Source: Aeromicrobium tamlense
Lineage (GTDB): Bacteria; Actinomycetota; Actinomycetes; Propionibacteriales; Nocardioidaceae
NCBI RefSeq assembly: GCF_013408555.1
Contig: NZ_JACBZN010000001.1
Coordinates: 620,001 to 684,000 of the forward strand
Direction of reading: 5' to 3'
Length of the DNA: 64,000 bases
Positions 1,538-22,944 of this stretch are shown in pieces; position 1 is the stretch's first letter, and each line of letters begins with the position of its first letter. Both the position numbers and the translations under genes were made by a program. The notes under the pieces were generated by a model that saw only the letters and a list, made by a program, of their open reading frames with translations, had not been told where the DNA came from and searched no databases.

Positions 1538-1549
1538 GGGACTGACGAC

Positions 1550-1804
1550 ATGGCACACAAGAAGGGCGCAGCCTCCACCAAGAACGGTCGCGACTCCAAC
1601 GCCCAACGCCTCGGCGTCAAGCGTTTCGGCGGCCAGCTGGTCAACGCGGGCGAGATCATCGTCCGTCAGCGTGGCACCCACTTCCACCCCGGCTCCAACG
1701 TCGGTCGCGGTGGCGACGACACGCTGTTCGCCCTCGCCCCCGGCGCGGTCGAGTTCGGCACGAAGCGCGGCCGTCGCGTCGTGAACATCGTTCCGGAGCA
1801 GTGA
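1550..1804 (+). CDS. rpmA: 50S ribosomal protein L27
   Basis: L27 sits at the peptidyl-transferase centre of the large subunit. The 84-residue product begins [19 protein letters not shown] and contains the conserved [10 protein letters not shown] and [20 protein letters not shown] blocks. There is no N-terminal extension of the type cleaved by Prp in Firmicutes. It is cotranscribed with rplU and followed by a hairpin terminator before obg. Confidence 0.98.
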
Positions 1805-1820
1805 CACGCAGATCCTCCTG

Positions 1821-1857
1821 AAGGGGGCGGTCCGCTGATGCGGACTGCCCCTTTCTC
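1821..1857 (+). terminator. Rho-independent type terminator after rplU-rpmA
   Basis: A 12-base stem (1824-1835 with 1840-1851, one G-U pair) closes a TGAT tetraloop and is followed by TTTCTCATTT. It starts about 20 bases after the rpmA stop and lies upstream of obg, so it probably ends or attenuates the ribosomal protein transcript. Confidence 0.75.
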
Positions 1858-1907
1858 ATTTCCCTCTCGGGGCTCGTTCCCCACCCAGACGCATCCAGGA
1901 GACACCC

Positions 1908-3491
1908 ATGGCGATCCCCACGTTCGTTGACCAGGTGACCCTGCACGTCTCGGGCGGCAACGGTGGGCACGGCGTCGCGTCGGTCCACCGTGAGAAGTTC
2001 AAGCCCCTCGGCGGTCCCGACGGCGGCAACGGTGGGCACGGCGGCGACGTCGTCCTGGTCGTCGCGTCCGACGTCACCACGCTGATCGACTACCACCACG
2101 AGCCCCACCGCAAGGCCACCAGCGGCGCGCCCGGCGCGGGCTCGAACCGCAACGGCGCCAACGGCGACGACCTCGTCCTGAAGGTCCCGGACGGCACGGT
2201 GATCCGCGACGAGAGCGGCGAGATCCTGGCCGACCTGGTCGGCGCCGGCACCTCCCTGGTCATCGCGGCCGGCGGTCGCGGCGGTCTGGGCAACGCCGCC
2301 CTCGCGTCGAGCAAGCGCAAGGCACCCGGCTTCGCGCTCAAGGGCGAGCCGGGCGAGGAGCGCACGGTCACGCTCGAGCTGAAGGTCGTGGCCGACATCG
2401 GCCTCATCGGCTTCCCCTCGGCCGGCAAGTCCAGTCTCATCGCCTCGCTCTCGCGCGCCCGTCCCAAGATCGCCGACTACCCGTTCACCACGCTGGTGCC
2501 GAACCTCGGCGTCGTGCGCGCGGGCGACACCACCTTCACCGTCGCCGACGTGCCCGGCCTCATCGAGGGCGCCAGCGAGGGTCGCGGCCTCGGTCACGAC
2601 TTCCTGCGCCATGTCGAGCGCTGCGCCGCGCTGGTGCACGTGATCGACTGCGCCACCGTCGAGCCCGGCCGTGACCCGCTCAGCGACCTCGACGTGATCG
2701 AGACCGAGCTCGCGCGCTACGGCGAGTACGCCGACGTCGACTTCAGCGACCGTCCCCGTCTCGTCGCCCTCAACAAGACCGACGTCCCCGACGCCGCCCA
2801 GATCGCCGAGTTCGTGATCGGCGAGCTGCGCGAGCGCGGCCTGCGCGTCTTCGAGGTCTCCGCGGCCAGCCATGCCGGCCTGCGCGAGCTGTCGTTCGCG
2901 ATGGCCGAGATCGTCGCCGCGCGTCGCGCCGCCGAGCCGAAGCGCGAGGCCACCCGCATCGTGCTGCGCCCGCCGGCGCCCTCCGGTGTGGGCCGCGAGT
3001 TCGAGGTCAGGCAGATCGACGGCCGCTGGCACGTCGTCGGCGAGAAGCCCGCCCGGTGGGTCCGCCAGACCGACTTCAGCAACGACGAGGCCGTCGGCTT
3101 CCTCGCCGACCGGCTCAACCGCCTCGGCGTCGAGGACGAGCTGCTCGGCCTGGGTGCCAAGGCCGGCGACGACATCGTCATCGGTGCCGCGCACGCCGGC
3201 GAGGTGGGCCGCGACGAGGTCGTGTTCGACTTCGATCCCACGATCACCGCCGGCGCCGAGGTGCTCGGCCGTCGCGGCGAGGACCTGCGCATCGACCAGA
3301 GCACGCGCCGCACGAACGCCGAGCGTCGCGAGCTGCTCGCCGCCCGTCGCGCCTGGGAGCTCGAGGCGGCCGCGCTGCGTGCCGAGGGCCGCGAGCCCGA
3401 GCCGTTCGACCCCAGCACGGTCCTCGAGGACTGGACGATCGGTGAGGAGTACCCCGGCGACGACGAGCTCGACGACGAGGACCTGCGGTGA
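1908..3491 (+). CDS. obg: GTPase Obg/CgtA, ribosome assembly
   Basis: Obg is an essential GTPase that binds the 50S subunit and links ribosome maturation to stress signalling. The product has 527 residues. The glycine-rich Obg fold covers about residues 1-160, including two copies of the motif GGNGGHG. The G domain follows with the P-loop GFPSAGKSS near residue 165, switch region [16 protein letters not shown] and the guanine-specifying NKTD. The C-terminal OCT domain spans about 345-425, and an acidic, charged tail follows, as in other actinobacterial Obg proteins. AGGAGA at 1897-1902 supports the ATG at 1908. The stop overlaps the proB start by four bases, so the two are translationally coupled. 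Confidence 0.98.
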
Positions 3492-4573
3492 GGGTCGTCG
3501 TCAAGGTCGGCTCCTCGTCGCTGACGACGCCGGACGGACACCTCGACCCCGACCGCATCGGCACCGTCGTCGACGCCGTCGTCACGGTGCGTGCCCGCGG
3601 TGACGAGGTCGTCCTGGTCTCGTCCGGTGCCATCGCCGCCGGCCTCGGCCCCCTGGGCCTGCCGCGCCGTCCCCGCGACCTGCCCACGCAGCAGGCCGCG
3701 GCCGCCGTCGGGCAGCGCGCGCTGATCGCGCACTACTCCGAGGCCTTCGCGGCCGCGGGCCTGGTCGTCGGCCAGGTGCTGCTCACCGTCGATGACGTCA
3801 CGCGCCGCAGCCACTACCGCAACGCGCACCAGACCTTCGCGAAGCTGCTCGAGCTGGGCGTCGTGCCGGTCGTCAATGAGAACGACACGGTCGCCACCTC
3901 CGAGATCCGCTTCGGCGACAACGACCGGCTGGCCGCGCTCGTGGCCCACCTCGTCCACGCCGACCAGCTGATCCTGCTGTCCGACGTCGACGGCCTCTAC
4001 ACGGGCCACCCCGACCTGCCCGACTCCCGGCCGATCGCCACGGTGCGGTCCGAGGCCGACCTCGCCGGCATCGACGTCGCGCGCGTCGGCTCGGCCGTCG
4101 GCACCGGAGGCATGGTCACGAAGCTCGACGCCGCGCGGATCGCCACGGCCGCCGGCATCCCCGTCCGCCTCACCTCGGCCGCCCGCGCGGTCGAGGCGGT
4201 CGAGGGCGAGCCCGTCGGCACGCTGTTCGAGCCCACCGGCAAGCGACGCGGCACGCGCCTGCTGTGGCTCGCGCACGCCAGCGAGACCAGAGGTCGGCTG
4301 CTGCTCGACGCGGGCGCGCGCCGGGCGCTCGTCGACCGCGGCGCCTCGCTGCTGGCCGCCGGGATCGTGGGCGTGGAGGGCGACTTCTCCGCCGGCGACC
4401 CCGTCGACGTGGTCGATCCCGACGGCGCCGTCATCGCGCGCGGCCTGGTCAACTACGACAGCGACGAGCTGCCCGGCATGCTGGGCCGCTCCACGGCCGA
4501 GCTCGCCGCCGAGCACGGTCCCGAGCGCGAGCGCGCGGTCATCCACCGCGACGACCTCATCCTCGTCTCCTGA
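3488..4573 (+). CDS. proB: Glutamate 5-kinase
   Basis: ProB phosphorylates glutamate in the first step of proline synthesis. The 361-residue product has the amino acid kinase fold ([15 protein letters not shown] at the N-terminus, VSSGAIAAG, and the NENDTVAT / [12 protein letters not shown] substrate-binding motifs) plus a C-terminal PUA domain from about residue 270. The GTG start overlaps the obg stop by four bases. The next enzyme of the pathway, ProA, is encoded at 10440, separated by a block of unrelated genes. Confidence 0.97.
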
Positions 4574-4582
4574 CGCATCACG

Positions 4583-4621
4583 CGGGCTTGCCCGTGACTC
4601 TCCTTCGGTGACACGGTCACC
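4583..4621. repeat. Two short inverted repeats between proB and the next gene
   Basis: CGGGC-TT-GCCCG (4583-4594) is followed by the perfect palindrome GGTGAC-ACG-GTCACC (4607-4621). The first lies 10 bases after the proB stop and could end the obg-proB transcript, but it has no T-run. The second ends just before the AGGAGGT ribosome-binding site of the next gene and could be an operator or an mRNA hairpin. Confidence 0.35.
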
Positions 4622-4635
4622 CCAGGAGGTCGGTC

Positions 4636-7626
4636 ATGTCCGGTCAGGACGCCAGCACGGTCGTGATGGAGCTGCGCGTGCACGGCGTGCGCGGCACGCC
4701 GACGGACTTGATGCTGGGCGTCCCGGCCGACGAGGTCGTCCAGGTCGCCGGTGACGGAAGGACCGGCTTCTACCGCATCCGCGACGGCGCCGACCCACCG
4801 CTGCGCACGCTGCCGCGCGGGATGGCACTCGAGGCCTACTCGTGGGGCGAGCTCACCTCGGGCGTGCGCGGCGTGCTCGGCTGGGTGACCCGGGTCCTGT
4901 GGCTCGTCCTGCTGCCGTTCGCGCTGGTGAACCTCGCGTTCTGGGCACGGACCCAGGCCGGCGAGGACAGCGGGCAGGCCCGGTGGGGGATGCGTGCCGT
5001 CCGGATCAGCGCGCTGCTGCTCACCGTGATCGCGATGCTGACCGTCTGCTTCGTCGCGATCGACCTCGTCGCCTGGCAGTGCTTCCGCGCGAACGCCGTG
5101 GCCTGCCCCGTCCTGCCCGACGCGCTCGACCGCGTGGCCGGACTGTCGGCCGGCGCCCGTATCGCGGTGATGTCGCTGGTCCCGCTCGGTGCCCTGCTCA
5201 CGCTCGTCGCGCTGTCGTTCCAGAGCCTCGCGCGCTACGAGGCGGCGGTGCACGAGGCGGACGTGACGATGACTGACGAGGAGCGTGGCCGGCCTCGGGC
5301 CAGCATCCTCGAGCACCCCCTGATGTGGCGGGGCGAGCAGCGCACCCGCCGGCTGCAGCGCCTGCACGTCGCCGCCGGCCTGACCACGGTCGTGCTGTTC
5401 ACCGGCATCCACGTGCTGGTGCGCGAGGGGCCGTCCCGGGTGTGGCCGACGACGCTGGCGGCGGCGGCCATCATGGCGGTCGTCGTGCTGCGGACGATGG
5501 CGGTCGACCAGGACGACCTGGAGTACCGCGACCGGCCGCACCAGGGACGGCTCAGCCGCCGCGTCTTCCCGTGGACGGGTCCGGGACGGATGATGCGACG
5601 GCTGCCGCTCGACGTCCTGGCCTGGGCGGCGCTCGGCGTCGTGGTGGTGCATCTGGCCGTGCTGTGGACGGTCGAGCTGCCCTTCGCGCAGCAGGACCTG
5701 GCCTGGTACGGCTCCAACCTGTGGTTCATCGGGCTGTTCGTGCTGCTGACGATCGTGCACGTCATCGTGTTCGTCGGCGGGCGCGTGCGGCTGCGCTGGA
5801 CGTGCGTCGTGGTCCTCGGCGTGCTGCTCGTCGTGGCGTCCGGCTGGCTCGTGCCCGCGTGGGTGCTGGCGGTCGAGACGGTCGCGGCGTGGGTCGTGCT
5901 GCTGGTGTTCCACCGGAACCGCAGCCGCAGGGAGCGCAATCGTCGCGTGGCCTGGGGCGGTGCGGGGGCCTCGGTGATGCTCGGCGCCGCGACGATGGTG
6001 GCGCTGCTGTTCACGTCGGCGGGAGCGGTGGCCGCGGCGAACTTCCTCAACGGCGACACCCAGACCGTGGCCGACCTCATCACCGTGCGCAACGAGCGGT
6101 CACCCGTCTCGGCGCAGGGGGAGCGGCGGCTGGCGCTGTCCGGCGACATCCGCCTGCAGGGAGCCCGCATCGTCCTGGAGAGCGGTGCCGTGCGGGTCAC
6201 CCACGGCACCATCCGTGCCGACGCGCTGTCCCGGGAGAGCGACGGCGTGGCCTCCTACTCCTTCGCCTCGACGCTCGTCGACCGAGCCGTCCTCGTGCTG
6301 CCGCCGGGCACGCGGACGGTCCGGCTGGTCGGGTCGTGCTTCGGTCGTGCCGACGACCCCGCGTACCCGGCGCAGGAGCCGTGCACGGGGGAGTCGAAGG
6401 GGTTCCGGACCGCCGGCGCCCTCGACGTCTCGCCCTCCTGCGTCCGCGACGACGCGCTCGTGCCGTGCCTGCGTGTCAAGGCCGCCGACGGGAAGGTGGC
6501 GCTCAAGGTCTCCGATCCGCCGCAGACGCCGATCGTCGTGCCCCAGGTGCTCGTGTGGACGCCGCTCATGCAGTCCTCGATGCTCGTGCTGGGCGGCCTG
6601 CTGACCGTCGTGATGGTGGTCCGCTACCGGACGAAGGCCGGTCCCGCGATCCGGCGGCTCGTGGGCCGCGACAGCCTCCGGGTGCCGTCGCAGGATCGCG
6701 ACGGAGTGACCGACGCGCGCCTCGCGGCGGGCCTGGCCCACCGCGCCGAGCGTCTGCTGGACGGCTCGGGGATGGTGACGACGGCCCTGGCCGTGGCGAC
6801 GCTCGCCCTCTCGTCGGGAGGCCGGGCGCCGTGGTCGGTCTACCCGGGGCTGCGGCCGCTCGCGACGATCTCGCTCTACGTCGCGCTGCTCGGCAGCATC
6901 GGCCTGATGATGGCCGGCGCGCGGGTCCGGCGATCGCCGACGGCGCGCCGCAACGTGGGCATCCTTTGGGACGTCACCACGTTCTGGCCGCGGGCGGCCC
7001 ATCCCTTCGCACCGCCCTGCTACGCCGAGCGGGTCGTCCCTGAGGTCACGGCGCGGGCACGCTGGGCGCTGGGCGACGACCCGAAGCGGGCGGTCGTCCT
7101 GTCCGGACACAGTCAGGGCTCGCTGATCTGCGTGGCGGTGGCGTGCCGCCTGAACGGCCAGGCGTCGCGGCTGCGGCTGCTCACGTACGGCAGCCAGGTC
7201 CGCGCGATCTACGGTCGCGTGTTCCCCGCGGCGGCGGGTCCGTCGGCCCTGGGCTACGTGCCGACGCCGGGCCCGACGAGGCTGGGCGAGGCCTGGCCGG
7301 ACGTGCCCGACGGACGGCCGCAGGCGTCGCCCGCGCCGACCGGCCTGCGGCACCAGCTCGGCGATCCGACGCACTGGGTCAACCTGTTCCGCCGCGGCGA
7401 CCCGCTCGGCTACCGCGTCTACTCCGACCGCGACCACCCCGTGTTCGACGTCCCGACGCTCGAGGTGCGGCCCGCGGACTCGGGCGATCCCGGCTCGCTC
7501 GTGATGACGCATGGCGGCTACCAGCACTCCCCGGAGTACCGCACCGCGATCGCGGCGTGGACGGGGGAGCCCGTGCACGTCTGCCCGACGGATCCGGCCC
7601 GGGCCGACGCGCTCCCGCCCACCTGA
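4636..7626 (+). CDS. Large multi-pass membrane protein with C-terminal GHSQGS hydrolase-like motif
   Basis: I do not recognise a named family. The 996-residue product starts with a soluble stretch containing LRVHGVRGTP, then about nine hydrophobic segments between residues 70 and 470. A roughly 150-residue hydrophilic, probably extracytoplasmic, region follows (about 475-630), then further membrane segments near 640 and 710-760. The C-terminal 200 residues contain VVLSGHSQGSL near residue 825, which looks like the nucleophile elbow (GxSxG) of an alpha/beta hydrolase, with VMTHGGY later as a possible histidine region. An AGGAGGT site at 4623-4629 supports the start. It may be a membrane-anchored esterase or lipase. 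The catalytic acid is not obvious. Confidence 0.8.
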   Translation: MSGQDASTVVMELRVHGVRGTPTDLMLGVPADEVVQVAGDGRTGFYRIRDGADPPLRTLPRGMALEAYSWGELTSGVRGVLGWVTRVLWLVLLPFALVNLAFWARTQAGEDSGQARWGMRAVRISALLLTVIAMLTVCFVAIDLVAWQCFRANAVACPVLPDALDRVAGLSAGARIAVMSLVPLGALLTLVALSFQSLARYEAAVHEADVTMTDEERGRPRASILEHPLMWRGEQRTRRLQRLHVAAGLTTVVLFTGIHVLVREGPSRVWPTTLAAAAIMAVVVLRTMAVDQDDLEYRDRPHQGRLSRRVFPWTGPGRMMRRLPLDVLAWAALGVVVVHLAVLWTVELPFAQQDLAWYGSNLWFIGLFVLLTIVHVIVFVGGRVRLRWTCVVVLGVLLVVASGWLVPAWVLAVETVAAWVVLLVFHRNRSRRERNRRVAWGGAGASVMLGAATMVALLFTSAGAVAAANFLNGDTQTVADLITVRNERSPVSAQGERRLALSGDIRLQGARIVLESGAVRVTHGTIRADALSRESDGVASYSFASTLVDRAVLVLPPGTRTVRLVGSCFGRADDPAYPAQEPCTGESKGFRTAGALDVSPSCVRDDALVPCLRVKAADGKVALKVSDPPQTPIVVPQVLVWTPLMQSSMLVLGGLLTVVMVVRYRTKAGPAIRRLVGRDSLRVPSQDRDGVTDARLAAGLAHRAERLLDGSGMVTTALAVATLALSSGGRAPWSVYPGLRPLATISLYVALLGSIGLMMAGARVRRSPTARRNVGILWDVTTFWPRAAHPFAPPCYAERVVPEVTARARWALGDDPKRAVVLSGHSQGSLICVAVACRLNGQASRLRLLTYGSQVRAIYGRVFPAAAGPSALGYVPTPGPTRLGEAWPDVPDGRPQASPAPTGLRHQLGDPTHWVNLFRRGDPLGYRVYSDRDHPVFDVPTLEVRPADSGDPGSLVMTHGGYQHSPEYRTAIAAWTGEPVHVCPTDPARADALPPT

Positions 7627-12832: not shown

Positions 12833-13536
12833 AGCCCGGCTTCAACCCCGGCCGCCGCGTCATCCTGTGGCGGCACGGGCGCACCGAGTGGAACGTGGCC
12901 GGCCGCGTGCAGGGCCAGACCGACATCCCGCTCGACGAGGTCGGCCGCCAGCAGGCCGTCGACGCCGCGGCCCGTCTGGCGTCGCTGCGTCCCGTGCGGA
13001 TCGTCAGCTCCGACCTGTCACGTGCCGCCGACACGGCCCAGGCGCTCGCCGACCGCACGGGACTCGAGGTCGAGCTCGACCCGCGGCTGCGCGAGCTCGC
13101 GTTCGGCGCGCGCGAGGGACTGACGTGGCGCGAGTCGTGGGAGCGGTTCCCGGCCGAGATGCAGGCGTGGGCCGACGGCGACGAGACCCGCATCGAGGGC
13201 GCCGAGACGCACGCCCAGGCCGGTGCCCGCCTGGAGGCGGCGCTGCGCGACCACCTCGACGCGCTGCCGCTGGGGGAGACCCTCGTGGTCGTCGCCCACG
13301 GTGCCGTCCTGCGCACGGGCATCCTGTCGTTCCTGGGCATCGCCGAGGAGTCGTGGCGCCAGTTCGGCGGCCTGTCGAACTGCCACTGGTCGGTGCTGCA
13401 GGAGGCCCGCTACGAGGAGTGGTCGCAGTGGCGCCTCTCGGAGTGGAACTCCGGATCCCTGCCCGAGCCGGTCATGTCGGACGACGAGGCCGACGAACCC
13501 GACCCCGGTTTGGGCAACTCGGCACCGGCCGTGTAA
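12829..13536 (+). CDS. Histidine phosphatase family protein
   Basis: This 235-residue protein has the RHG motif (VILWRHGRTEWN, catalytic histidine near residue 16) and the second histidine in VVVAHGAVLRTG. In actinomycetes the gene downstream of rsfS is usually annotated as a phosphoglycerate-mutase-like phosphatase; some members are glucosyl-3-phosphoglycerate phosphatases. The C-terminal tail is acidic and less conserved. Substrate cannot be assigned from sequence. Confidence 0.92.
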   Translation: MKPGFNPGRRVILWRHGRTEWNVAGRVQGQTDIPLDEVGRQQAVDAAARLASLRPVRIVSSDLSRAADTAQALADRTGLEVELDPRLRELAFGAREGLTWRESWERFPAEMQAWADGDETRIEGAETHAQAGARLEAALRDHLDALPLGETLVVVAHGAVLRTGILSFLGIAEESWRQFGGLSNCHWSVLQEARYEEWSQWRLSEWNSGSLPEPVMSDDEADEPDPGLGNSAPAV

Positions 13537-13555
13537 TCTTACGGAGGTTGTTAGA

Positions 13556-13628
13556 GGGGCATTGGCGCAGTTGGTAGCGCGCTTCCATGGCATGGAAGAG
13601 GTCAGGAGTTCGAATCTCCTATGCTCCA
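13556..13628 (+). tRNA. tRNA-Ala (anticodon GGC)
   Basis: The 73-base sequence folds as a cloverleaf: acceptor GGGGCAT/ATGCTCC, D-stem GCGC/GCGC, anticodon stem CTTCC/GGAAG with anticodon GGC at 13589-13591, and T-arm AGGAG-TTCGAAT-CTCCT. The third acceptor pair is G-T (G3-U70 in RNA), the main identity element for alanyl-tRNA synthetase. The discriminator base is A, and CCA is not encoded. It reads GCC and GCU codons. Confidence 0.97.
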
Positions 13629-13633
13629 CCCGA

Positions 13634-13677
13634 AGCAGGTCCGGATCCTCCCAGAGGATCCGGACCTGCTGCTTTTT
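13634..13677 (+). terminator. Strong intrinsic terminator after tRNA-Ala
   Basis: A perfect 17-base stem (13634-13650 with 13654-13670) with a CCA loop is followed by GC and five T residues. It begins six bases after the tRNA and ends 17 bases before the end of the convergent rpsN gene. Confidence 0.95.
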
Positions 13678-13693
13678 CCGGTGCCGGCGACGC

Positions 13694-13996
13694 CTACCAG
13701 CTGGACTTCGTGATCCCCGGCAGCTCGCCACGGTGGGCCGCCGCGCGGAACCGGATCCTCGACAGTCCCGCCTTGCCCACGTGCCCGCGCGGCCGTCCGT
13801 CGACCTGGTCCCGCTTGCGGACTCGCACGGGGCTGGCGTCCCGGGGGAGCCGGGCCAGCGCGCGCACCGCCGCGCGGACCTCGTCCGGGGTGGTCGCCGT
13901 CCGGACGGCCTGCTTGAGCTCGGCCCGGCGGACGGCGTGACGGGCCGCGACCTCCTTCCGGCGCTCGTTCGCGACGATCTTCGACCGCTTCGCCAT
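13694..13996 (-). CDS. rpsN: 30S ribosomal protein S14, zinc-independent paralogue
   Basis: The 100-residue product is the long form of S14 without any cysteine; the zinc form is about 61 residues with two CxxC pairs. [13 protein letters not shown] and the C-terminal [24 protein letters not shown] match the family. It is the last gene of rpmB-rpmG-rpsN, with a TGATG overlap to rpmG. The Zur-type palindrome upstream of rpmB suggests expression under zinc limitation. Confidence 0.96.
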
Positions 13997-14166
13997 CAGC
14001 GCTCCTCCCGGAAGTCGACGTGCCGACGGACGACGGGATCGAACTTGCGCAGCAGCAGCCGGTCGGGGTCGTTGCGCCGGTTCTTGCGCGTGACGTAGGT
14101 GAACCCGGTCCCGGCGGTGGACCGGAGCTTCACGATGGGCCGGACGTCGTGACCGCGCCGCGCCAT
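13996..14166 (-). CDS. rpmG: 50S ribosomal protein L33, zinc-independent paralogue
   Basis: The 56-residue product starts [20 protein letters not shown] and contains [18 protein letters not shown] and [12 protein letters not shown], characteristic of L33. It has no cysteine, so the zinc-ribbon of the C-plus form is absent. Start and stop codons overlap by one base with rpmB and rpsN, so all three are coupled. Confidence 0.95.
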
Positions 14167-14402
14167 CAGATCCTCACCCCTCGGGCGAGCAGGTCGGCGA
14201 CGACCGCATCGATGCCCCGGCGGTCGACCGTCTTGATGCCGCGGGCGCTGAGGGTGAGCGTGACGCGACGGTTCAGGCTCGGCACCCAGTAGTGCCTCGT
14301 CTGGACGTTGACGTCGAACCGTCGCTTCGTGCGGCGGTGGGAGTGGGAGACCCGGTGACCGAATCCCGGCTGGGCGCCGGTGACCTGGCAGACACGCGAC
14401 AT
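14166..14402 (-). CDS. rpmB: 50S ribosomal protein L28, zinc-independent paralogue
   Basis: The 78-residue product begins [20 protein letters not shown] with the following SHRRTKRRF block, as in L28. Only one cysteine remains, so the CxxC metal site of zinc-containing L28 is missing. An upstream in-frame ATG exists, but GGAGGT at 14406-14411 fixes the start at 14402. It is the first gene of the minus-strand arm of the zinc-responsive locus. Confidence 0.95.
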
Positions 14403-14421
14403 GCGCACCTCCATCATGTAG

Positions 14422-14434
14422 AATGATAATCATT
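14422..14434. promoter_or_regulatory. Zur-type operator palindrome
   Basis: AATGATAATCATT is a perfect 13-base palindrome in an AT-rich island within a very GC-rich region. It resembles the core of actinobacterial Zur boxes (AATGATTTTCAT type). It lies 20 bases from the rpmB start and 27 from the rpmE2 start. GATAAT on one strand and GATTAT on the other are within it and could be the two -10 elements, so zinc-bound Zur would block both directions. Confidence 0.8.
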
Positions 14435-14460
14435 GTCAACTACGACGTTAGCAGGAGACC

Positions 14461-14721
14461 GTGAAGAAGGACATCCATCCCCGATACGAGACCGTGGTCT
14501 TCCGGGACAAGTCGTCCGGAACGACCTACCTGACCCGCTCGACCCTCACGAGCGACGAGCGCCTGGAGGTCGACGGCGTGACCCACCCGGTCGTCGACGT
14601 GGAGATCTCCAGCGCCAGCCACCCGTTCTGGACGGGCCGCGGCCGGGTCGTCGACACCGAGGGCCGCGTCGAGCGCTTCCGACGCCGCTACGGAACCCCC
14701 ACGGAAGGAGCGAGTCGATGA
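14461..14721 (+). CDS. rpmE2: 50S ribosomal protein L31 type B (zinc-free)
   Basis: The 86-residue product starts [20 protein letters not shown] and lacks the CxxC of type A L31. Type B L31 proteins are longer and replace the zinc form under zinc limitation. GCAGGAGACC precedes the GTG start. The stop overlaps the rpmJ start by four bases. Confidence 0.96.
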
Positions 14722-14840
14722 AGGTCCGCAACTCACTGAGGTCGCTGAAGGACCAGCCCGGGTCGCAGGTCGTGCGACGCCGCGGCCGGACGTACGTGAT
14801 CAACAAGCGGAACCCGCGGCTGAAGGCGCGGCAGGGATGA
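14718..14840 (+). CDS. rpmJ: 50S ribosomal protein L36, zinc-free paralogue
   Basis: The 40-residue product [20 protein letters not shown] continues with a basic C-terminus ending RLKARQG. The three cysteines and the histidine that bind zinc in ordinary L36 are missing. ATGA overlaps connect it to rpmE2 and to the following CobW-like gene. Confidence 0.95.
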
Positions 14841-15925
14841 CGCCGTCGCAGGCGGTGCCCGTGGTGCTCATCAGCGGCGTCGAGGACGAGCCCATGGCGG
14901 CCGCGGCGATCGCCCTGCAGTGGGACCTCCCGCGCGCGGTCGCGGTGCGCCACGTCATCGACGCCGAGCGCGAGGTGCTGTGGCGCATCGTCAGCGACGC
15001 CACGGGCGTCGTGGAGCGGACCGAGATCGACGTCGAGCACGCGTGCGTGAGCTGCGCGATCCGCGAGGACGTCGTCCCCACGCTGGAGCGGCTCGGCGCG
15101 GACGGGCGCTGGGAGACGATCATCGCCCAGCTGCCCGTCACGGCCGAGGCGGTGCAGGTCTGCCGCGTGATCGGCTGGGCGCCCCACCAGGTGCCGCACG
15201 CGCGGATCGCCGCGTCGTTGGTCGCCCTGTCGAGCGACACCCTGCTCGACGACCTCCTGGGCGACGACCTGGTCAACGAGCGCGACCTCCCGGTGCGCGC
15301 CGACGACAACCGCGGCGTGGCCGAGGTCACCTGCGCGATGGTCGAGTACGCCGACGTCGTGGCGGTCGGGGACGCGCTCGATGCCGAGGAGCGCGAGGTG
15401 CTCGAGGCGCTGGCGCGGCCCGGCGTCCCCGTCGTGGAGTCGTTCAGCCAGGTCGACGCGCGGCCCCTCGTGACGGGCGTCCACGACCACCGCGCGAACG
15501 AGTCGTGGGTCGCGGAGGTGCGTCGCGACGCGCTGCCGGACCGCGGGCTCGCGTCCGCCTGGGTGCTGGACTTCACGTCCGATCGGCCGTTCCACCCCGA
15601 GCGGCTCCGCGACGCGATCGCCGTCCTCGGGGGCGGTCCCCGGCGCTCGCGTGGCTGCTTCTGGCTGCCGTCGCGCCCGGGGCAGGTCTGCGTGTGGGAC
15701 GGTGCCGGCGGCCAGCTCAGCGTCGGCTCGACCGAGACGTGGGGGCGTACCCGTCCGCTCACGCGGATCACGGTCGTCGGCGTGGACGACGGTCGCGATG
15801 AGCTCGAGCGCGCCTTCGCGTCCTGCGTGCTCACCGATGCCGAGATGCACGAGCGCGGCCCGTACTGGGAGGTGACCGAGGACGGCTTCGAGGCCTGGCT
15901 CGGTCCCATCCGCCGCGCCGCCTGA
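14837..15925 (+). CDS. COG0523/CobW-family protein without a P-loop, Mrf-like
   Basis: The 362-residue product aligns by eye with COG0523 metal-homeostasis proteins. It keeps the family cysteine motif as CVSCAIRED (Cys70, Cys73) and a CobW C-terminal domain ([10 protein letters not shown], then [20 protein letters not shown]). The Walker A site is absent: the segment after VVLISG reads [10 protein letters not shown] instead of GxGK(S/T), and no NKxD is seen, so GTP hydrolysis is unlikely. Zur-controlled relatives with this degenerate start exist in mycobacteria (Mrf, Rv0106 type, as I recall), where Mrf brings a hibernation factor to zinc-depleted ribosomes. The operon with C-minus ribosomal proteins supports the same role, but metal chaperoning is not excluded. 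Confidence 0.85.
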
Positions 15926-15956
15926 CCCGACCACATCCCTCTCCGAAGGAGCCGTC

Positions 15957-16133
15957 ATGGCCGTTCCCAAGCGCAAGCTGTCCCGCAGCAACACCCGTCA
16001 CCGCCGCTCGTCGTGGAAAGCCACGGCAGCCGACCTCGTCCCCGTGGAGATCGACGGCCACGTCCACCGCGTGCCGCGCCGGCTGGTGAGGGCGGCCCGC
16101 CGGGGCCTGCTCGACCTCGACGGACGTGGCTGA
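15957..16133 (+). CDS. rpmF: 50S ribosomal protein L32, zinc-free paralogue
   Basis: The 58-residue product begins [20 protein letters not shown], the conserved L32 N-terminus. In ordinary L32 the C-terminal half has a four-cysteine zinc ribbon. Here that half has none ([18 protein letters not shown]), so it is a C-minus form. GAAGGAG at 15945-15951 is the ribosome-binding site. It ends the plus-strand arm of the zinc-responsive locus. Confidence 0.92.
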
Positions 16134-16174
16134 GACGGTCGCCGCCCGCTGGGGGTCTGCGCCAGACTGGTCGC

Positions 16175-17116
16175 ATGGCGCGCTACGTGACGTACACCCA
16201 GACCGGCGGACCCGAGGTCCTCGAGGTCACGGAGGGACCTGAGCCCCTGCCCGGCGAGGGCCAGGTACTCGTGGCGATCCGTGCGGCCGGTGTGAACCCG
16301 ATCGACACGAAGCTGCGGGCCGGCATCCGGCCGTCGCCGCCGTTCGAGGAGCCGCGCGGCGCGGGCTTCGACGGCGCCGGCGTGATCGTGGCGGTCGGCG
16401 AGGGCGTCGACGGCTGCGGTCCGGGCGACGAGGTCGTCCTGCAGAACACCCAGGGCACCTACGCCACGCACGTGCTGGCCGACCCGGCGAACCTCACGGC
16501 GCTCCCCGCGGGCGTCGACTTCGAGGTCGCGGCGGCGCTCGGCGTGCCGGTCTCCACGGCCTACCAGGTGCTGAACTCGCTGGGCGTGGAGACGGGCGAC
16601 CGCCTGCTCCTGCACGGCGGCTCCGGCAGCGTCGGCCAGGCGGCGATCCAGCTGGCACGCTCGCGCGGCGCGCAGGTCGTGGCCACGGCCGGCGAGGCCA
16701 ACCACGACCGGCTGCGGGAGCTCGGCGCGGTCCCGGTGACGTACGGCGAGGGCCTGCTGGACCGGCTGCGTGAGGCGGCTCCGGAGGGCTACACCGTCTC
16801 GCTCGACTGCGCCGGCACCGAGGAGGCCCTCGAGGCCAGCCTCGCGCTGGTCGACCGCACCCGCATCGGCACGATCGTCCAGGGCGCGCAGTACCACGAG
16901 CTGGGCCTGCAGGCGTGGTCCGGCGGCTCGCCCGAGCCGCTGACGCCCGAGCAGCAGGGCTGGCGGAACGAGGCGCTCGGCGTCGTGCTGCCGCTCATCG
17001 CCGCCGGCTCCTTCGAGGTCGAGATCGGGACGGTGCTGCCGCTCGACCAGGCGGTCGAGGCGCATCGCCTCAGCGAGCAGGGCGGCGTGCGGGGCAAGAT
17101 CGTCCTCGTGCCCTGA
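16175..17116 (+). CDS. Zinc-independent quinone oxidoreductase (MDR superfamily)
   Basis: The 313-residue product is a medium-chain dehydrogenase/reductase of the NADPH:quinone reductase type. GES-like N-terminal domain residues GPEVLEVTEGPEPLPGEG are followed by GVNPIDTKLRAG, and the NADP-binding Rossmann fold is marked by LLLHGGSGSVGQAAIQLAR. Structural zinc cysteines are absent. The start is ATG 16175, with CAGACT ending six bases upstream. The natural substrate is unknown. Confidence 0.92.
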   Translation: MARYVTYTQTGGPEVLEVTEGPEPLPGEGQVLVAIRAAGVNPIDTKLRAGIRPSPPFEEPRGAGFDGAGVIVAVGEGVDGCGPGDEVVLQNTQGTYATHVLADPANLTALPAGVDFEVAAALGVPVSTAYQVLNSLGVETGDRLLLHGGSGSVGQAAIQLARSRGAQVVATAGEANHDRLRELGAVPVTYGEGLLDRLREAAPEGYTVSLDCAGTEEALEASLALVDRTRIGTIVQGAQYHELGLQAWSGGSPEPLTPEQQGWRNEALGVVLPLIAAGSFEVEIGTVLPLDQAVEAHRLSEQGGVRGKIVLVP

Positions 17117-17191
17117 CGCACGCCCGCGCCCACAGCAGGCGCACAACGAGCCCACATGGACGGCTGACGTGCCGTTGGTCTGCTGTTCACC

Positions 17192-17734
17192 ATGAACTCC
17201 TACCTGGGCTACGCAGCCGACCTCGTCGCCGTCGCGGTGATGGTCTTCGTCCTGTTCCTCCCACGCGGCGGCCGCCGCGAGCTCGTCGTGGCGTACCTCG
17301 CGGTCAACGTCGGCGTCCTCGCCGTGGCGGCGGTGCTGTCCTCGAGTGGCGTCAGCGCCGGCCTCGGCCTGGGCATCTTCGGCGTGCTGTCGATCATCCG
17401 GCTGCGGTCGGAGGAGCTCTCGCAGCGTGAGGTCGCGTACTACTTCGTGGCCCTCGCCCTGGGGCTGCTGGGCGGCCTCGCGCCGGCCGACTCGTGGCTC
17501 GCGCCGGCCCTCATGGTGGCGCTGCTCGCCGTGCTGTGGGTCGGCGACCACCAGCGCTTCACGACCGGTGGCAGCCGGCAGGAGCTCGTGATCGACCGCG
17601 CCATCACCGATCGCGGCGAGCTGGCCGCGCACCTCGAGGCGCTGCTGGGCGCCGAGCCGGCGAGGATCGAGGTCCGGCGCACCGACCTGGTCAACGACAC
17701 GACCACGCTCGTCGTCCACGGTGGCGCCCGATGA
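17192..17734 (+). CDS. DUF4956 membrane protein
   Basis: The 180-residue protein has four or so membrane segments in its first 125 residues and a soluble C-terminal domain of about 55 residues. The GLGIFGVLSIIRLRSEELSQ stretch is characteristic of DUF4956. Genes of this family usually stand beside a VTC-type polyphosphate polymerase, as here: the stop overlaps the next start by four bases. Its role is unknown; it may form the membrane channel or anchor for the polymerase. Confidence 0.88.
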   Translation: MNSYLGYAADLVAVAVMVFVLFLPRGGRRELVVAYLAVNVGVLAVAAVLSSSGVSAGLGLGIFGVLSIIRLRSEELSQREVAYYFVALALGLLGGLAPADSWLAPALMVALLAVLWVGDHQRFTTGGSRQELVIDRAITDRGELAAHLEALLGAEPARIEVRRTDLVNDTTTLVVHGGAR

Positions 17735-18465
17735 CGCTCGTGGCCCCCGAGCGGCTCGCGCCGATCGGGCTGGACGAGCTCGTCGAGGACGCCGCGCTGC
17801 TGACGCGGGTCGACCGCAAGTACACGGTCCCGGCGGACGAGGTGGCCTCGCTGCTCCACGCCGTCCCGCCGGGGACGCGCGAGCTGGAGATCGACGGGCG
17901 GCGCGCCTTCGGGTACCGCTCCACCTACTTCGACACCGCCGACCTCGCGGCGTTCCACCTGGCGGGCCGGGGACGCCGTCGCCGGTTCAAGGTGCGCTCC
18001 CGGTCCTACGAGGACGCCGGGACGACGTGGCTCGAGGTGAAGGTCCCGGGACCGCGCGGCACCACCGTGAAGGAGCGGATCGAGCACCCCGGACTCGACG
18101 CGGCGTTCGTCGACGCGGCCCTGGTGGTCGGCCGGATCACGGGCGTGACGGCCGCCGACCTGCGGCCGGTCGTGGTGACCTCGTACCGACGCCGCACCCT
18201 GCTGCTGCCCGAGGGCAGCCGCGTGACGATCGACCTCGACCTCGGCTGGACGGACCTCCGCGGCGGCCGCGGCGCCCACCTCGCGCGCCCGGGGCTCGCG
18301 ATCGTCGAGACCAAGAGCCCCTCCACCCCGTCGGCGTTCGACCGGCTGCTGTGGCGCCGGGGCCATCGACCCACCACCCTCTCGAAGTTCGCGGTCGGCC
18401 TGGCCGCGCTCGACCCCGACCTGCCGCGCCTGAAGTGGGCGCGCGTCCTCAAGGAGATCCGATGA
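17731..18465 (+). CDS. VTC-domain polyphosphate polymerase-like protein
   Basis: The 244-residue product has the triphosphate-tunnel fold of VTC proteins, which polymerise polyphosphate from ATP in yeast. Visible tunnel residues are RVDRKYTVP, YRSTYFDT, RRRFKVRSRSY, TWLEVKV, SYRRRTLLL and the late AIVETKS with a conserved glutamate. It is soluble, with DUF4956 as the likely membrane partner. ATGA overlaps tie it to both neighbours. Bacterial polymerase activity is inferred from the family. Confidence 0.88.
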   Translation: MTLVAPERLAPIGLDELVEDAALLTRVDRKYTVPADEVASLLHAVPPGTRELEIDGRRAFGYRSTYFDTADLAAFHLAGRGRRRRFKVRSRSYEDAGTTWLEVKVPGPRGTTVKERIEHPGLDAAFVDAALVVGRITGVTAADLRPVVVTSYRRRTLLLPEGSRVTIDLDLGWTDLRGGRGAHLARPGLAIVETKSPSTPSAFDRLLWRRGHRPTTLSKFAVGLAALDPDLPRLKWARVLKEIR

Positions 18466-20075
18466 AGACCTCGACCTGGAAGCACCGCATCGCCCTGTCC
18501 ACAGCCGCCGCCGGACTGCTGCTGCTGTCTGCGTGCGGTGGCGAGGAGGGCGCCGCGGGATCGACCTCGACCACGGGAGCCGTGACGGCTCAGGAGGCCC
18601 TCGCCGACAACGCGGAGCCGCACGCGGACGGCGACGACACCGTCGACACCGCGAGCGCCACGACCATCACGCTCGCCGACGGCGCGTCCACCAGCTCGGT
18701 CGAGAGCGCGGCGACGGTCGCCGGCGACACGGTGACGATCTCCGCGGCCGGGACGTACGTGCTCTCCGGATCGCTCGACGACGGCCGCGTCATCGTGTCG
18801 AGCGAGGGGGACGGCGAGGTGACGCTCGTGCTCGACGGCGTCGACATCACGTCGGAGTCGGACTCGCCCCTCGTCGTGACGCAGGCCGACGCGGTGACCG
18901 TCGTGCTGGCCGACGGATCGCAGAACGCCCTGTCCGACGGCGCGGGCTCGGCGGCGGACGACGAGGAGGAGGACGCGGCGAACGCGACCCTGTGGTCATC
19001 GGACGACCTGACGATCGCGGGCTCGGGCGCCCTGTCGGTGACCTCGCAGGAGGCCGACGGCATCACGTCGAAGGACGGGCTCGTGGTGCTGGGCGGCGAG
19101 ATCACGGTGGAGGCCGGCGACGACGGCATCCGCGGCAAGGACTACCTCGCCCTCGACGGCGGCACGATCGAGATCCGCGCCGGCGGCGACGGCCTCAAGT
19201 CGGACGACGACACCGAGGACGGCACGGGCTACGTCCTGCTCGACGGCGCCACCGTGACCGCCGACGTGGGCGACGACGGGATCTCGGCCACGACCGATGC
19301 GCTGGTGGTCTCGGGCTCGCTCGACGTCACCGCGACCGCCCCGGCGGACGAGCAGGACCCGTCGCCGAAGGGGATCAACGCCGGAGCGGTCGTCGCGATC
19401 TCCGGCGGCGAGGTCACGGTCGACGACTCCGAGGAGGCGATCCAGGGCACGGTCGTGAGCATCACGGACGGGACGGTCGACCTCACGGCGACGGACGACG
19501 GCATCAACGCGTCCAGCGGCTCGGGCGAGTCGATGGCGGCCGAGGACGGCGTCGAGCTGGTCATCGCGGGCGGCACGGTCACGGTGGATGCCGAGGGCGA
19601 CGGACTGGACTCGAACGGCACCAGCACGATCACGGGCGGCACGGTCGTCGTCGACGGACCGACCCGCGACGGGAACGGCGCGCTCGACGCCGCCGGCGGA
19701 ACGGCGGTGGACGGCGGATCGCTCGTCGCGGTCGGCAGCGGCGGCATGGCCGAGGCTCCTGCCGACGGGTCGGAGCAGGGCTGGCTCCAGGCCAGCCTGG
19801 GCACCGCGGCCGCCGGGGCCGAGGTGACCGTGCAGGACGAGGACGGCCGGGAGGTCGCGACGCACACCCTCGCCAAGGCGGCCGCGAACCTCGTGGTCGC
19901 GAACGACGACATCGAGGCGGGGCGGACGTACACCGTGCTGGTCGACGGCCAGCAGGTCGCGTCGGTCACGGCGGGCGAGTCCACCGGCGGCGGCATGGGC
20001 GGCGGCCCCGGGGGCGGTGGCCCGGCCGGCGGTGGTCCCGGCGGCGACATGGCGCCACCCGACCGGCAGGAATGA
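18462..20075 (+). CDS. Lipoprotein with carbohydrate-binding (DUF4353-like) repeats
   Basis: The 537-residue product has a lipoprotein signal with lipobox LLSAC (Cys near residue 24). An Ala/Thr/Asp-rich region follows, then a beta-helix-like domain with repeated DDGI/GDGL turns (AGDDGIRGKDYLALDGGTIE and similar) to about residue 420, which fits DUF4353. The C-terminus is glycine- and proline-rich. It is the third gene of the DUF4956-VTC operon; this lipoprotein type often accompanies these genes along with CotH kinases, but no CotH gene is seen here. It is probably tethered to the outer face of the membrane. Confidence 0.85.
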   Translation: MKTSTWKHRIALSTAAAGLLLLSACGGEEGAAGSTSTTGAVTAQEALADNAEPHADGDDTVDTASATTITLADGASTSSVESAATVAGDTVTISAAGTYVLSGSLDDGRVIVSSEGDGEVTLVLDGVDITSESDSPLVVTQADAVTVVLADGSQNALSDGAGSAADDEEEDAANATLWSSDDLTIAGSGALSVTSQEADGITSKDGLVVLGGEITVEAGDDGIRGKDYLALDGGTIEIRAGGDGLKSDDDTEDGTGYVLLDGATVTADVGDDGISATTDALVVSGSLDVTATAPADEQDPSPKGINAGAVVAISGGEVTVDDSEEAIQGTVVSITDGTVDLTATDDGINASSGSGESMAAEDGVELVIAGGTVTVDAEGDGLDSNGTSTITGGTVVVDGPTRDGNGALDAAGGTAVDGGSLVAVGSGGMAEAPADGSEQGWLQASLGTAAAGAEVTVQDEDGREVATHTLAKAAANLVVANDDIEAGRTYTVLVDGQQVASVTAGESTGGGMGGGPGGGGPAGGGPGGDMAPPDRQE

Positions 20076-20093
20076 GTTCACGCGGCGTTCAGC

Positions 20094-20127
20094 CTGACGC
20101 GGCCCGGAGTTGGGCCGGGCCCGTCAG
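20094..20127 (+). terminator. GC-rich hairpin after the VTC operon
   Basis: CTGACG and GGCCCGG pair with CCGGGCC and CGTCAG, giving a 13-base-pair stem with one bulged C and an AGTTGGG loop. It lies 18 bases after the lipoprotein stop and 9 bases before the next GTG. There is no T-run, so it could be an actinobacterial I-shaped terminator or an mRNA structure at the next start. Confidence 0.55.
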
Positions 20128-20136
20128 GGTGACGCC

Positions 20137-22944
20137 GTGTCTCGTTCCCTCGCGTGCCTCGCCGGCACCGCCGTGCTGGCCACGGTCCTCCCGCTCCTGA
20201 CCACCTCCGCCGCGGACGCGGCGCCCGAGAAGTCCTTCCACCGGGTCGCGACGTACCCCGTGTTCCAGAACGTCCCCGCGGGCACTCCCGCCTCGGCCGA
20301 GACGGTCGCCGAGATCTCGGCGGTCTCCGACGACGGCCGGACGCTGGTGTACACCGACGCCCTCGGCAAGCGCATCGGCTTCCTCGACATCAGCGACCCG
20401 TCGTCGCCGCGCGGCGAGGGCTCGCTGTCGCTGGAGGAGCTCGGCGACGCCGACGACCAGCCCACGTCGGTGAGCATCGTCGGGAAGTACGTCCTCGTGG
20501 TCGTCGACACGTCCGCGTCCTTCACCGAGCCGAGCGGCCGGCTCGACGTCGTGCGCCTGTCCGACGGCGTGCGGGTCCGCAGCATCGACCTCGGCGGGCA
20601 GCCCGACTCCATCGCCCTCGACCCCGGCACGTCGGTGGCGGCGATCGCGATCGAGAACCAGCGCGACGAGGACGCGACGCCGGCCGGCCGCGCCAAGGGC
20701 GACCTGCCGCAGGCCCCGGCGGGCTTCGTGCAGCTGCTCGACCTCGAGGGCGCGCCGGCCGACTGGAGCCTGCGCCGCGTCGACCTCGACCCCGCGGTGC
20801 TCGGCGCCGCCGGGATCGCCGAGCCGACGGACCCGGAGCCGGAGTACGTCTCCATCAACGGGAAGGGCACGCTCGCCGTGACCCTCCAGGAGAACAACGG
20901 CATCGTGCTGATCGACACCGCGACGGGTGAGGTCGAGAAGGCCTTCAGCGCCGGCTCGGTGGCGCTGTCCGGCGTCGACGCGAAGAAGGACGGCGCGATC
21001 TCACTGACCGACTCGCTGGCCGCCGCCCCGCGCGAGCCCGACGCCGTCGCCTGGATCGGCGACGACCACCTGGCCACCGCCAACGAGGGCGACTGGAAGG
21101 GCGGCACGCGCGGCTGGACCGTGTTCGACACCGACGGCGACGTCGTGTGGGACGCCGGGAACACGTTCGAGCGCATCGCCGTGAGACACGGCCTGCACAA
21201 CGACGACCGGGCCGCGAAGAAGGGCGCCGAGCCGGAGGGCCTCGCGGTCGCGGAGTTCGACGGCACGCCGTACGCCTTCGTCGGCTCCGAGCGCAGCAAC
21301 TTCGTCGCCGTGTACGACGTCAGCGATCCGGCCGACCCGGAGTTCGTCCAGATCATGCCGACGACGAACGGCCCCGAGGGCCTGCTGCCGATCCCGTCGC
21401 GCGGTCTCTTCGCGGTGTCCAGCGAGACGGACGACGCCGGCGTCGGCGTCCGCGCCACCGTGGGCCTCTACTCCTGGGAGCCCGGCACGGCAGCGTTCCC
21501 GTCGATCGTGTCGGACGACAAGGGCGGCGCGCCGATCGGCTGGCAGGCGCTCGGCGCCCTGTCCGGCGACCCGAAGGACGCGAAGACGCTGTGGACCGCG
21601 GCCGACACCGTGATCAAGAACGGCACGCTCTACCGGGTCGACGTCTCGGCCACCCCGGCTCGGATCACCGACTCGGTGGCGGTCACGGACGGAGGGGCTC
21701 CGGCGGCGCTCGACATCGAAGGCCTGTTCAAGCGCCCGCAGGGTGGCTTCTGGCTCGCCTCCGAGGGCGCGACCGGCCCGGCGAACGCGCTGGTGCGCAC
21801 CGACGACGCCGGAGCCGTGCGGGAGCGCGTCCCGCTGCCGGCCGACGTCACGGCGCGACTGGGCAAGTGGGGACTCGAGGGCGTGACCGCCACGAACGAC
21901 GCCGACGGCGAGCACGTCTGGTTCGCCCTCCAGCGCCCGCTCACCGGCGAGGACGTGGTGCGGATCGGGCGGTACGACGTCGCCGACGGCACGTTCCACT
22001 GGTTCGGCTACGAGCTGGAGAGCCCACTGCGCGGTAGCGGCGACTGGGTGGGCCTGTCGGAGATCACGGCGATCGACGACGACACCTTCGCGGTCATCGA
22101 GCGCGACAAGCTCAACGGCCCCGCCGCCCGCAACAAGCGGATCTACACGTTCTCGGTCCCGGAGGACTCCGCCGAGGAGCTGCCGGTCGTGGAGAAGCGA
22201 CTCGCGATCGACGTCCTGCCGCAGCTGCGGGCGACGAACGGCTGGACGCAGGAGAAGCTCGAGGGCTTCACGATCGCGGCCGACGGCTCGCTGTACGCCG
22301 TGACCGACAACGACGGCCTCAAGGACGCCACGGGCGAGACGGTGTTCCTGCGCCTGGGCCAGGCCTCCGACGCGTTCGGCGCGGAGCTCGCCACGACGAC
22401 GGGCCTGAGGGTGTCGGCGTCGCGTGCCGCATACGGCGCGCGCCTGGCCGCCACGGTGACGCTCGGGGGAGCGGCCACCTCCGGCTCGGTCGAGCTGCGC
22501 GACGGCTCGAAGGTCGTGGCGCGGGCTCGCGTGGCGGGTGGGAGGGCCACGGTGACGCTGCCGCGCCTCGCGGTCGGCACCCACCGCCTGACGGCCCGCT
22601 TCACGGGCTCGGCCTCGGCGGCGGCGTCCACGAGCACGCCGGTCACCGTCACGGTCGTCAAGGCCGCGAGCCGGACGTCGCTCGCCGCGAAGGGCAGTGT
22701 GAAGCGTGGCAAGCCGGTCAAGGTCGTCGCGACCGTCCGCGCCATGGGCCACGTGCCCTCGGGGAAGGTCCGGTTCGTGTCCGGCGGGCGCGTCCTGAAG
22801 ACCGTGAGCCTGAGGAACGGCAAGGCCGTCGCCACGGTCCGGCTGCGCTCGACCGGTGGCCAGCGGATCCGCGCGGTCTACGTGGGCTCGTCGCAGACGA
22901 AGGCCTCGACGTCGGCGCCCCGGAAGGTCACCGTCAGGCCATAA
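20137..22944 (+). CDS. Secreted esterase-like-activity-of-phytase family protein with Ig-like repeats
   Basis: The 935-residue product has a Sec signal peptide (residues 1-28, cut near ADA-APEK). It then has a beta-propeller-like region with phytase-like family blocks: EPEGLAVAEFDG, ALDIEGLFKRPQGGFWLASEG, KWGLEGVT and KLEGFTIAADGSLYAVTDN. From about residue 752 come two Ig-like domains ending RKVTVRP, with no sortase signal. Proteins of this type are annotated as phosphoesterase or phytase-like. I chose GTG 20137 because the signal peptide begins there. It follows the polyphosphate operon in the same direction. Confidence 0.85.
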   Translation: MSRSLACLAGTAVLATVLPLLTTSAADAAPEKSFHRVATYPVFQNVPAGTPASAETVAEISAVSDDGRTLVYTDALGKRIGFLDISDPSSPRGEGSLSLEELGDADDQPTSVSIVGKYVLVVVDTSASFTEPSGRLDVVRLSDGVRVRSIDLGGQPDSIALDPGTSVAAIAIENQRDEDATPAGRAKGDLPQAPAGFVQLLDLEGAPADWSLRRVDLDPAVLGAAGIAEPTDPEPEYVSINGKGTLAVTLQENNGIVLIDTATGEVEKAFSAGSVALSGVDAKKDGAISLTDSLAAAPREPDAVAWIGDDHLATANEGDWKGGTRGWTVFDTDGDVVWDAGNTFERIAVRHGLHNDDRAAKKGAEPEGLAVAEFDGTPYAFVGSERSNFVAVYDVSDPADPEFVQIMPTTNGPEGLLPIPSRGLFAVSSETDDAGVGVRATVGLYSWEPGTAAFPSIVSDDKGGAPIGWQALGALSGDPKDAKTLWTAADTVIKNGTLYRVDVSATPARITDSVAVTDGGAPAALDIEGLFKRPQGGFWLASEGATGPANALVRTDDAGAVRERVPLPADVTARLGKWGLEGVTATNDADGEHVWFALQRPLTGEDVVRIGRYDVADGTFHWFGYELESPLRGSGDWVGLSEITAIDDDTFAVIERDKLNGPAARNKRIYTFSVPEDSAEELPVVEKRLAIDVLPQLRATNGWTQEKLEGFTIAADGSLYAVTDNDGLKDATGETVFLRLGQASDAFGAELATTTGLRVSASRAAYGARLAATVTLGGAATSGSVELRDGSKVVARARVAGGRATVTLPRLAVGTHRLTARFTGSASAAASTSTPVTVTVVKAASRTSLAAKGSVKRGKPVKVVATVRAMGHVPSGKVRFVSGGRVLKTVSLRNGKAVATVRLRSTGGQRIRAVYVGSSQTKASTSAPRKVTVRP

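Follow-up and report, generated by a model that had tools for sequence, protein, structure and literature searches.

A predicted Zur-controlled cluster of zinc-free ribosomal protein genes with an MRF-like gene in Aeromicrobium tamlense

A cluster of seven genes in two divergent arms is encoded at positions 13694-16133 of the window, i.e. the whole stretch of 64,000 nucleotides analysed here, which corresponds to bases 620001-684000 of the single-contig genome (3.37 Mb) of Aeromicrobium tamlense. Six of these genes encode ribosomal proteins according to Pfam and NCBIfam, and the locus is best read as a zinc-sparing module controlled by Zur and including a hibernation factor, to which we would assign a probability of roughly 0.85. 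The predicted control by Zur is well supported at the sequence level, because zinc-ribbon twins exist for all six ribosomal proteins, the palindrome between the arms fits a published Zur consensus exactly, a box of the same kind occurs at a znuACB-zur operon and an aztD-like gene, and the palindrome is conserved in related clusters. In this small natural gene set, the exchange of the cell's zinc-ribbon ribosomal proteins seems to be governed by one operator, and the zinc-reservoir idea and its link with hibernation could be addressed through this one 2.4-kb unit. Its placement, which is less expected than its function, suggests mobility.

Zinc-free ribosomal proteins and their zinc-ribbon twins

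The minus arm is composed, in reading order, of genes coding for L28 (14166..14402; 78 aa; PF00830, 85.2 bits), L33 (13996..14166; 56 aa; PF00471, 56.3 bits; TIGR01023, 76.7 bits) and S14 (13694..13996; 100 aa; PF00253, 76.7 bits), the stop codon of each of the first two overlapping the start of the following gene by 1 nt. The plus arm comprises, in order, genes coding for a type B L31 (14461..14721; 86 aa; GTG start; NF002462, 119.1 bits for a cut-off of 86), a type B L36 (14718..14840; 40 aa; NF002021, 77.8 bits for a cut-off of 70), an MRF-like protein (14837..15925; 362 aa) and L32 (15957..16133; 58 aa; PF01783, 36.8 bits; TIGR01031, 45.3 bits for a cut-off of 22.6); the first three are joined by ATGA overlaps and a 31-bp gap separates the MRF-like gene from that of L32. 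Since four of the five within-arm junctions overlap, the products are probably made together.

An earlier note on this DNA, made from its letters and open reading frames, had described six ribosomal protein genes in one divergent cluster, an arrangement that is confirmed here, as is the identification of S14 as the longer C-minus form, which passes the long-S14 model (NF006477, 112.6 bits for a cut-off of 77). Its statement that all six proteins lack cysteine holds for S14, L33, L31, L36 and L32 (0 Cys each) and fails for L28, which has one cysteine versus four in its twin. The seventh gene, coding for the MRF-like protein and representing 45% of the cluster span, had been overlooked, and hibernation was thus omitted from the proposed function.

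The zinc-containing paralogues that the earlier note proposed to look for are present elsewhere in the genome for all six families, with cysteine pairs seen in the twins (starts: L36, 188019; L32, 802493; short-form S14, 175283; L33, 140273; L28, 795489; L31, 2061838). Eight ribosomal protein families are named as having alternative forms in PMC5912738. S18 is encoded by a single gene in this genome and is cysteine-free, and S4, encoded beside the main L36 gene (end of locus L021, Pfam-confirmed), has 0 Cys over the 171 residues read. As both were found already zinc-free, the six cluster proteins cover all zinc-ribbon members seen among the eight families, and the set is complete in the sense that had been claimed. 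Judging from the sequences, the six families seen here with a zinc ribbon are exactly the six that could be replaced from the cluster.

Zur-type operator and proposed mechanism

The palindrome TGATAATCATTGTCA (14424..14438) lies in the 58-bp gap between the L28 and L31 genes, at distances of 21 and 22 bp to their start codons, and shows zero mismatches with the Zur consensus of Streptomyces coelicolor, tGaNNatSatNNtCa (PMC5472717). The palindrome common to both arms that had been proposed is thus present, the action of Zur on it being predicted. A scan of the whole 3.37-Mb genome with TGANAATNATTNTCA, allowing up to two mismatches, retrieved four places in three neighbourhoods, namely this cluster, two tandem copies where a znuA-znuC-znuB-zur operon begins, and a single copy 13 bp before an AztD-like gene, the product of which scores 394 bits for a model cut-off of 400; the same scan with the pattern reversed (backwards) gave 0 matches. 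The AztD-like place is located at G000:C1:3241712-3241726 (L038:5713-5727), and the genes on its other side resemble what we take to be an ECF-type transporter.

The operator is also conserved in position. Among the window and 80 named loci of relatives, 53 have divergent L28 and L31 genes, and the palindrome was present with at most two mismatches in 50/50 L28/L31 gaps of 20-600 bp (median gap 60 bp), against 1.0% of random control stretches of equal length; three divergent loci with a gap above 600 bp were left out of this count. In the window, a sigma-70-like promoter match for the L31 arm, GCGACA-17-TAGAAT (14396..14424, plus strand), which is a consensus match only, ends at the palindrome (1 found versus 0.1 expected in shuffles).

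According to the proposed mechanism, zinc-loaded Zur would occupy the single palindrome as long as zinc is present, keeping both arms off. When zinc drops, Zur would leave, L28-L33-S14 and L31-L36-MRF-L32 would both be induced, and the six zinc-free proteins would take the positions of their zinc-ribbon twins in newly assembled ribosomes. As S18 and S4 were found already zinc-free, the resulting ribosome would be without a zinc ribbon in the eight compared families, and this zinc release could save up to six zinc ions per ribosome. Under deeper starvation, the MRF-like protein could guide the single HPF to zinc-free ribosomes, as its mycobacterial counterpart does, and would presumably sense zinc through its CxxC.

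MRF-like gene

The product of the gene at 14837..15925 has its best NCBIfam match with the MRF model (NF047431, 135.8 bits), followed by the ZigA model (NF038288, 85.6 bits for a cut-off of 600), and contains a CobW C-terminal domain (PF07683, 52.2 bits). As the equivalog cut-off of the MRF model (375 bits) was missed, the protein is named here MRF-like and not MRF. Zinc chaperone GTPases of COG0523 (ZigA/YciC) carry two motifs, a P-loop GxxGxGK[ST] and CxCC. Among 98 MRF-like sequences, which include that of the window and count a few genomes twice, the P-loop was found within the first 60 residues of none (one sequence starts too late for the test), and CxCC was likewise found in 0/98; CxxC followed by A or T is present in 97, in the window as C70-V-S-C73. 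The name of the MRF family in NCBIfam says GTPase, yet the corresponding P-loop was seen in none of the sequences that could be judged.

Mycobacterial MRF, which is regulated by Zur and has a CXXC, undergoes degradation by Clp in its zinc-bound state and promotes the binding of Mpy to zinc-free ribosomes (PMC13418864), and its gene adjoins those of zinc-free L28 and L31 (PMC7174638). A single HPF gene is encoded in the genome of A. tamlense, and the MRF-like protein is a probable hibernation factor. No sequence match for it was obtained among solved structures. It matched 707 plasmid records, all with less than 60% identity, and no plasmid carrier was identified among the 20 of these 707 matches that were listed.

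Alternative explanations

Several points weigh against the preferred reading of a module that spares zinc under Zur and includes a hibernation factor. One cysteine (Cys5) remains in the cluster L28, as does a single cysteine in L28 of 43 of the 44 complete clusters of relatives; the S4 read stops at the end of its locus, at 171 residues, and no search for a second S4 was made; and a search of the L28 arm gave no sigma-70-like promoter match. L36 of S. coelicolor has been reported under sigma-R and not Zur (PMC3087516). The MRF-like protein is far from reaching its equivalog cut-off, and its putative function is deduced from a best match, the gene neighbourhood and one motif.

Another view is that the gene codes for a COG0523-type zinc chaperone (ZigA/YciC) instead of a hibernation recruiter, the locus then only redistributing zinc. 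The CobW C-terminal domain and the weak ZigA match agree with such a function, as do the 20 listed of the 707 plasmid matches, which are ZigA, GTP-binding proteins or unannotated. However, the MRF model outscores the ZigA model (135.8 versus 85.6 bits), the mycobacterial MRF gene occupies a matching position (PMC7174638), and the lack of both P-loop and CxCC in the 98 sequences makes the usual nucleotide-driven metal transfer unlikely; a chaperone is considered improbable here. Slightly less probable again is that the alternative proteins chiefly give the ribosome other translation properties, zinc saving being a side effect. The alternative proteins of Mycobacterium smegmatis do affect physiology beyond survival of severe zinc loss (PMC5912738), but the type of operator that the cluster shares with znuACB-zur and the AztD-like gene suggests zinc supply as the primary role. 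Finally, the absence of the cluster from three close relatives could be expected of a relic with little or no expression; with seven open frames, an exact operator fit and overlapping junctions all kept, this would be very surprising.

Comparison with known systems and frequency among relatives

The relatives were surveyed by scanning named genomes with an MRF alignment, and the 80 loci retained are the best 80 of 135 relatives, a sample biased towards clusters with a similar MRF. In 44 of the 80, all six ribosomal protein genes are no more than 4.5 kb away from the MRF-like gene, and 41 of these 44 complete clusters share the divergent plan. A contig end truncates seven of the 36 loci without all six genes; the sequence available next to the MRF-like gene is shorter than 4.5 kb on one side in 15 of the 80 (8 with all six genes, 7 without). 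Four organisms were entered twice (G020/L111, G034/L126, G010/L152 and G004/L114), and the count of 44 of 80 uses named records only; the labels ZnuA, Zur and oxidoreductase in this survey come from single-query profiles, without individual checks.

Divergent clusters with the same seven genes and the conserved Zur-like palindrome occur in Nocardioides, Aeromicrobium, Propionibacteriaceae and some Micrococcales. They differ in that the order is mostly L31-MRF-L32-L36 (32 of the 44 complete clusters) whereas that of the window, L31-L36-MRF-L32, is found in 9 (other orders: 3). By their titles, the nine are Propionibacteriaceae (3), Micropruina (3), Propionicicella (1), Actinomycetales (1) and an Aeromicrobium metagenome-assembled genome (MAG) (1).

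In M. smegmatis (MSMEG_6065-6070), Zur-controlled genes for zinc-free S14, L33 and L28 stand beside a CobW-domain MRF gene and L31 (PMC7174638), with a CXXC in MRF (PMC13418864). MSMEG_6068 (L28) and MSMEG_6069 (MRF) are each given a Zur motif in print (PMC7174638), but the two motifs share 21 bases when one is reversed and represent a single palindrome on two strands, so a divergent shared operator exists in mycobacteria too; an interpretation as two separate sites was rejected on the basis of the printed letters. In contrast to the window, the M. smegmatis locus has a zinc-free S18, and no L36 or L32 is listed for it (PMC7174638); the locus of A. tamlense includes L36 and L32 but not S18, the sole gene of which already codes for a cysteine-free protein. 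In S. coelicolor, zinc-free S14, L28, L31, L32, L33 and L36 are all present and respond to low zinc (PMC3087516), and the Zur consensus is the same (PMC5472717). The differences are that L33B and L36 were reported under sigma-R rather than Zur (PMC3087516) and that rpmF and rpmG/B are separate Zur targets (PMC5472717), whereas the six genes of the window share one palindrome.

The cluster belongs to an already known type of system, and zinc-free L36 and L32 have already been reported, from S. coelicolor (PMC3087516). The earlier note had considered the presence of L36 and L32 together in the set unusual: among relatives this is contradicted by the survey, and with respect to the best-known cases the position of these two genes inside the locus is the only contrast. 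Its functional claim is very likely correct, its claim of rarity is not supported. No published description of a six-gene layout under a single operator was found in the open-licence literature.

In nine loci of the same genus (L064, L067-L069, L071, L073, L075, L078 and L084), a zinc-free L36 gene is encoded without other zinc-free genes nearby, and a Zur-like palindrome with at most one mismatch lies just before it.

Descent of the cluster

In the MRF tree, the window and the Aeromicrobium MAG YM.16 (L092, 75% identity) fall in a clade of 14 rows with an SH-like approximate likelihood ratio test (SH-aLRT) support of 98 (97 in a 49-row subset), which holds all nine other loci with the gene order of the window and mixes Propionibacteriaceae with Micropruina and Propionicicella. 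NCBI places the latter two genera in Nocardioidaceae, the family of Aeromicrobium; GTDB places them otherwise. MRF tree and gene order thus ally the window with Micropruina, Propionicicella and Propionibacteriaceae and not with most Aeromicrobium. The flanking genes of the L092 cluster differ from those of the window.

The six ribosomal proteins give a different picture. In their joined tree, the window stands beside a Nocardioides MAG with a modest support of 89 and has no supported place near the group of Propionibacteriaceae, Micropruina and Propionicicella, and for single proteins the best matches of the window are often Aeromicrobium or Nocardioides. A constraint uniting the window, L092 and eight clusters of that group was not rejected by the approximately unbiased (AU) test (p-AU 0.34). 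Grouping of the window with all Aeromicrobium was rejected, a result that is partly trivial because the clusters of this genus are not monophyletic in the trees; in two narrower tests, joining the window and L092 with either of two Aeromicrobium groups was rejected as well. An origin as a single block from Propionibacteriaceae is only partly supported, in view of the mixed clade, the six-protein tree and the single-protein matches. Since the six ribosomal proteins often resemble those of Aeromicrobium or Nocardioides, the cluster may be a mosaic.

Placement beside tRNA-Ala and possible mobility

The cluster begins 63 bp past a tRNA-Ala (GGC) gene (13556..13630, plus strand; ARAGORN), the 3' end of which points towards it and which forms the left edge of the interval absent in relatives according to an empty-site comparison. 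It ends 41 bp before a quinone-oxidoreductase-like gene (16175..17116, plus strand; PF13602, PF08240), a right neighbour that lies outside the kit and adjoins tRNA-Ala in two relatives. Judged by the phosphoglycerate-mutase-like neighbour, for which 24 of the 36 same-genus genomes were searched, the closest relatives are G006, G007 and G018 (86-90% identity), the others showing 56-71% identity and G017 only a weak match. The cluster is missing in G007 and G018, where the oxidoreductase gene lies 60 and 67 bp past tRNA-Ala, and G006 carries at the same site 5.6 kb of other DNA, coding for a set of iron-siderophore ABC transporter components and a regulator of the AraC type. In each of these three genomes, S14 and L36 gave a single match, in both cases read as the zinc-ribbon form; among 28 same-genus genomes, own included (at least 90% complete, at most 5% contaminated), two S14 copies are present in 16 and at least two L36 copies in 25.

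The simplest reading of the site suggests that the cluster was acquired, exchanged or moved as a unit; alternatively, it may have been lost in the three close relatives rather than gained in the lineage of the window. Gain or relocation is favoured because no blastn similarity to 13640-16150 (E 1e-8, at least 60 bp) was found in the 16 same-genus tRNA-Ala (GGC) neighbourhoods fetched (out of 36 genomes), a protein-level search not having been made. With regard to genomic islands, the position at a tRNA 3' end and the absence at the site in close relatives agree with this class of element. On the other hand, no duplicated tRNA 3' end was found (a single match in the window), no repeat of at least 14 bp joins the two borders, no integrase is encoded, the interval missing in relatives (about 13636-16150) holding only the seven genes, and no foreign base composition was seen (GC 0.68-0.74 over 13500-16499 versus 0.68-0.75 in the flanks).

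Seven flank groups can be distinguished among the 23 Aeromicrobium cluster loci, in which no fewer than three genomes are represented twice; the number of groups depends on the thresholds used (300 bp, E 1e-15, 3.5 kb of flank). In three of the groups, the cluster is preceded or followed by a tRNA gene with its 3' end directed towards it, with tRNA-Ala (GGC) in the window, tRNA-Ala (CGC) in G020/LLX17 and G033, and tRNA-Arg (TCT) in G008, G034/A. endophyticum, L123 and L140. A tRNA gene lies within 400 bp in 9 of the 77 cluster loci with at least five of the seven gene families, i.e. in 7 distinct genomes, against about 1 in 70 loci expected from tRNA density (26 tRNAs in 1.46 Mb), kinship inflating the observed nine. 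It is tentatively proposed, as a possibility that we consider rather doubtful, that the 2.4-kb kit of six proteins, MRF-like factor and one operator moves among Actinobacteria as a cassette settling at tRNA 3' ends and giving a lineage zinc-independent ribosomes in one step, Aeromicrobium having repeatedly taken in, lost or relocated it. If true, ribosomal protein genes would be passed on together as one package; that zinc-free ribosomal protein genes are transferred at all has already been documented (PMC3087516).

Further observations concern the surroundings of these sites. In the window, a terminator-like hairpin (13634..13670, plus strand; 17-bp stem, 3-nt loop, followed by a T run) lies between tRNA-Ala and the end of the S14 gene and is statistically weak (1 found versus 0.4, standard deviation 0.7, in shuffles). 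Directly past the oxidoreductase gene, 17118-20077 (about 3 kb) is without blastn match in the fetched stretch of G007, and 17117-22939 (about 5.8 kb) likewise in that of G018, so that a second difference from these relatives adjoins that of the cluster. In L080, L081, L123, L126 and L140, only 29-94 bp separate the cluster and the tRNA-Arg (TCT) 3' end, L081 and L126 being the same genome. The insert of G006 occupies 240-5765 of locus L173 (G006:C1:540000-548500), and modules for metal supply may preferentially settle at this site.

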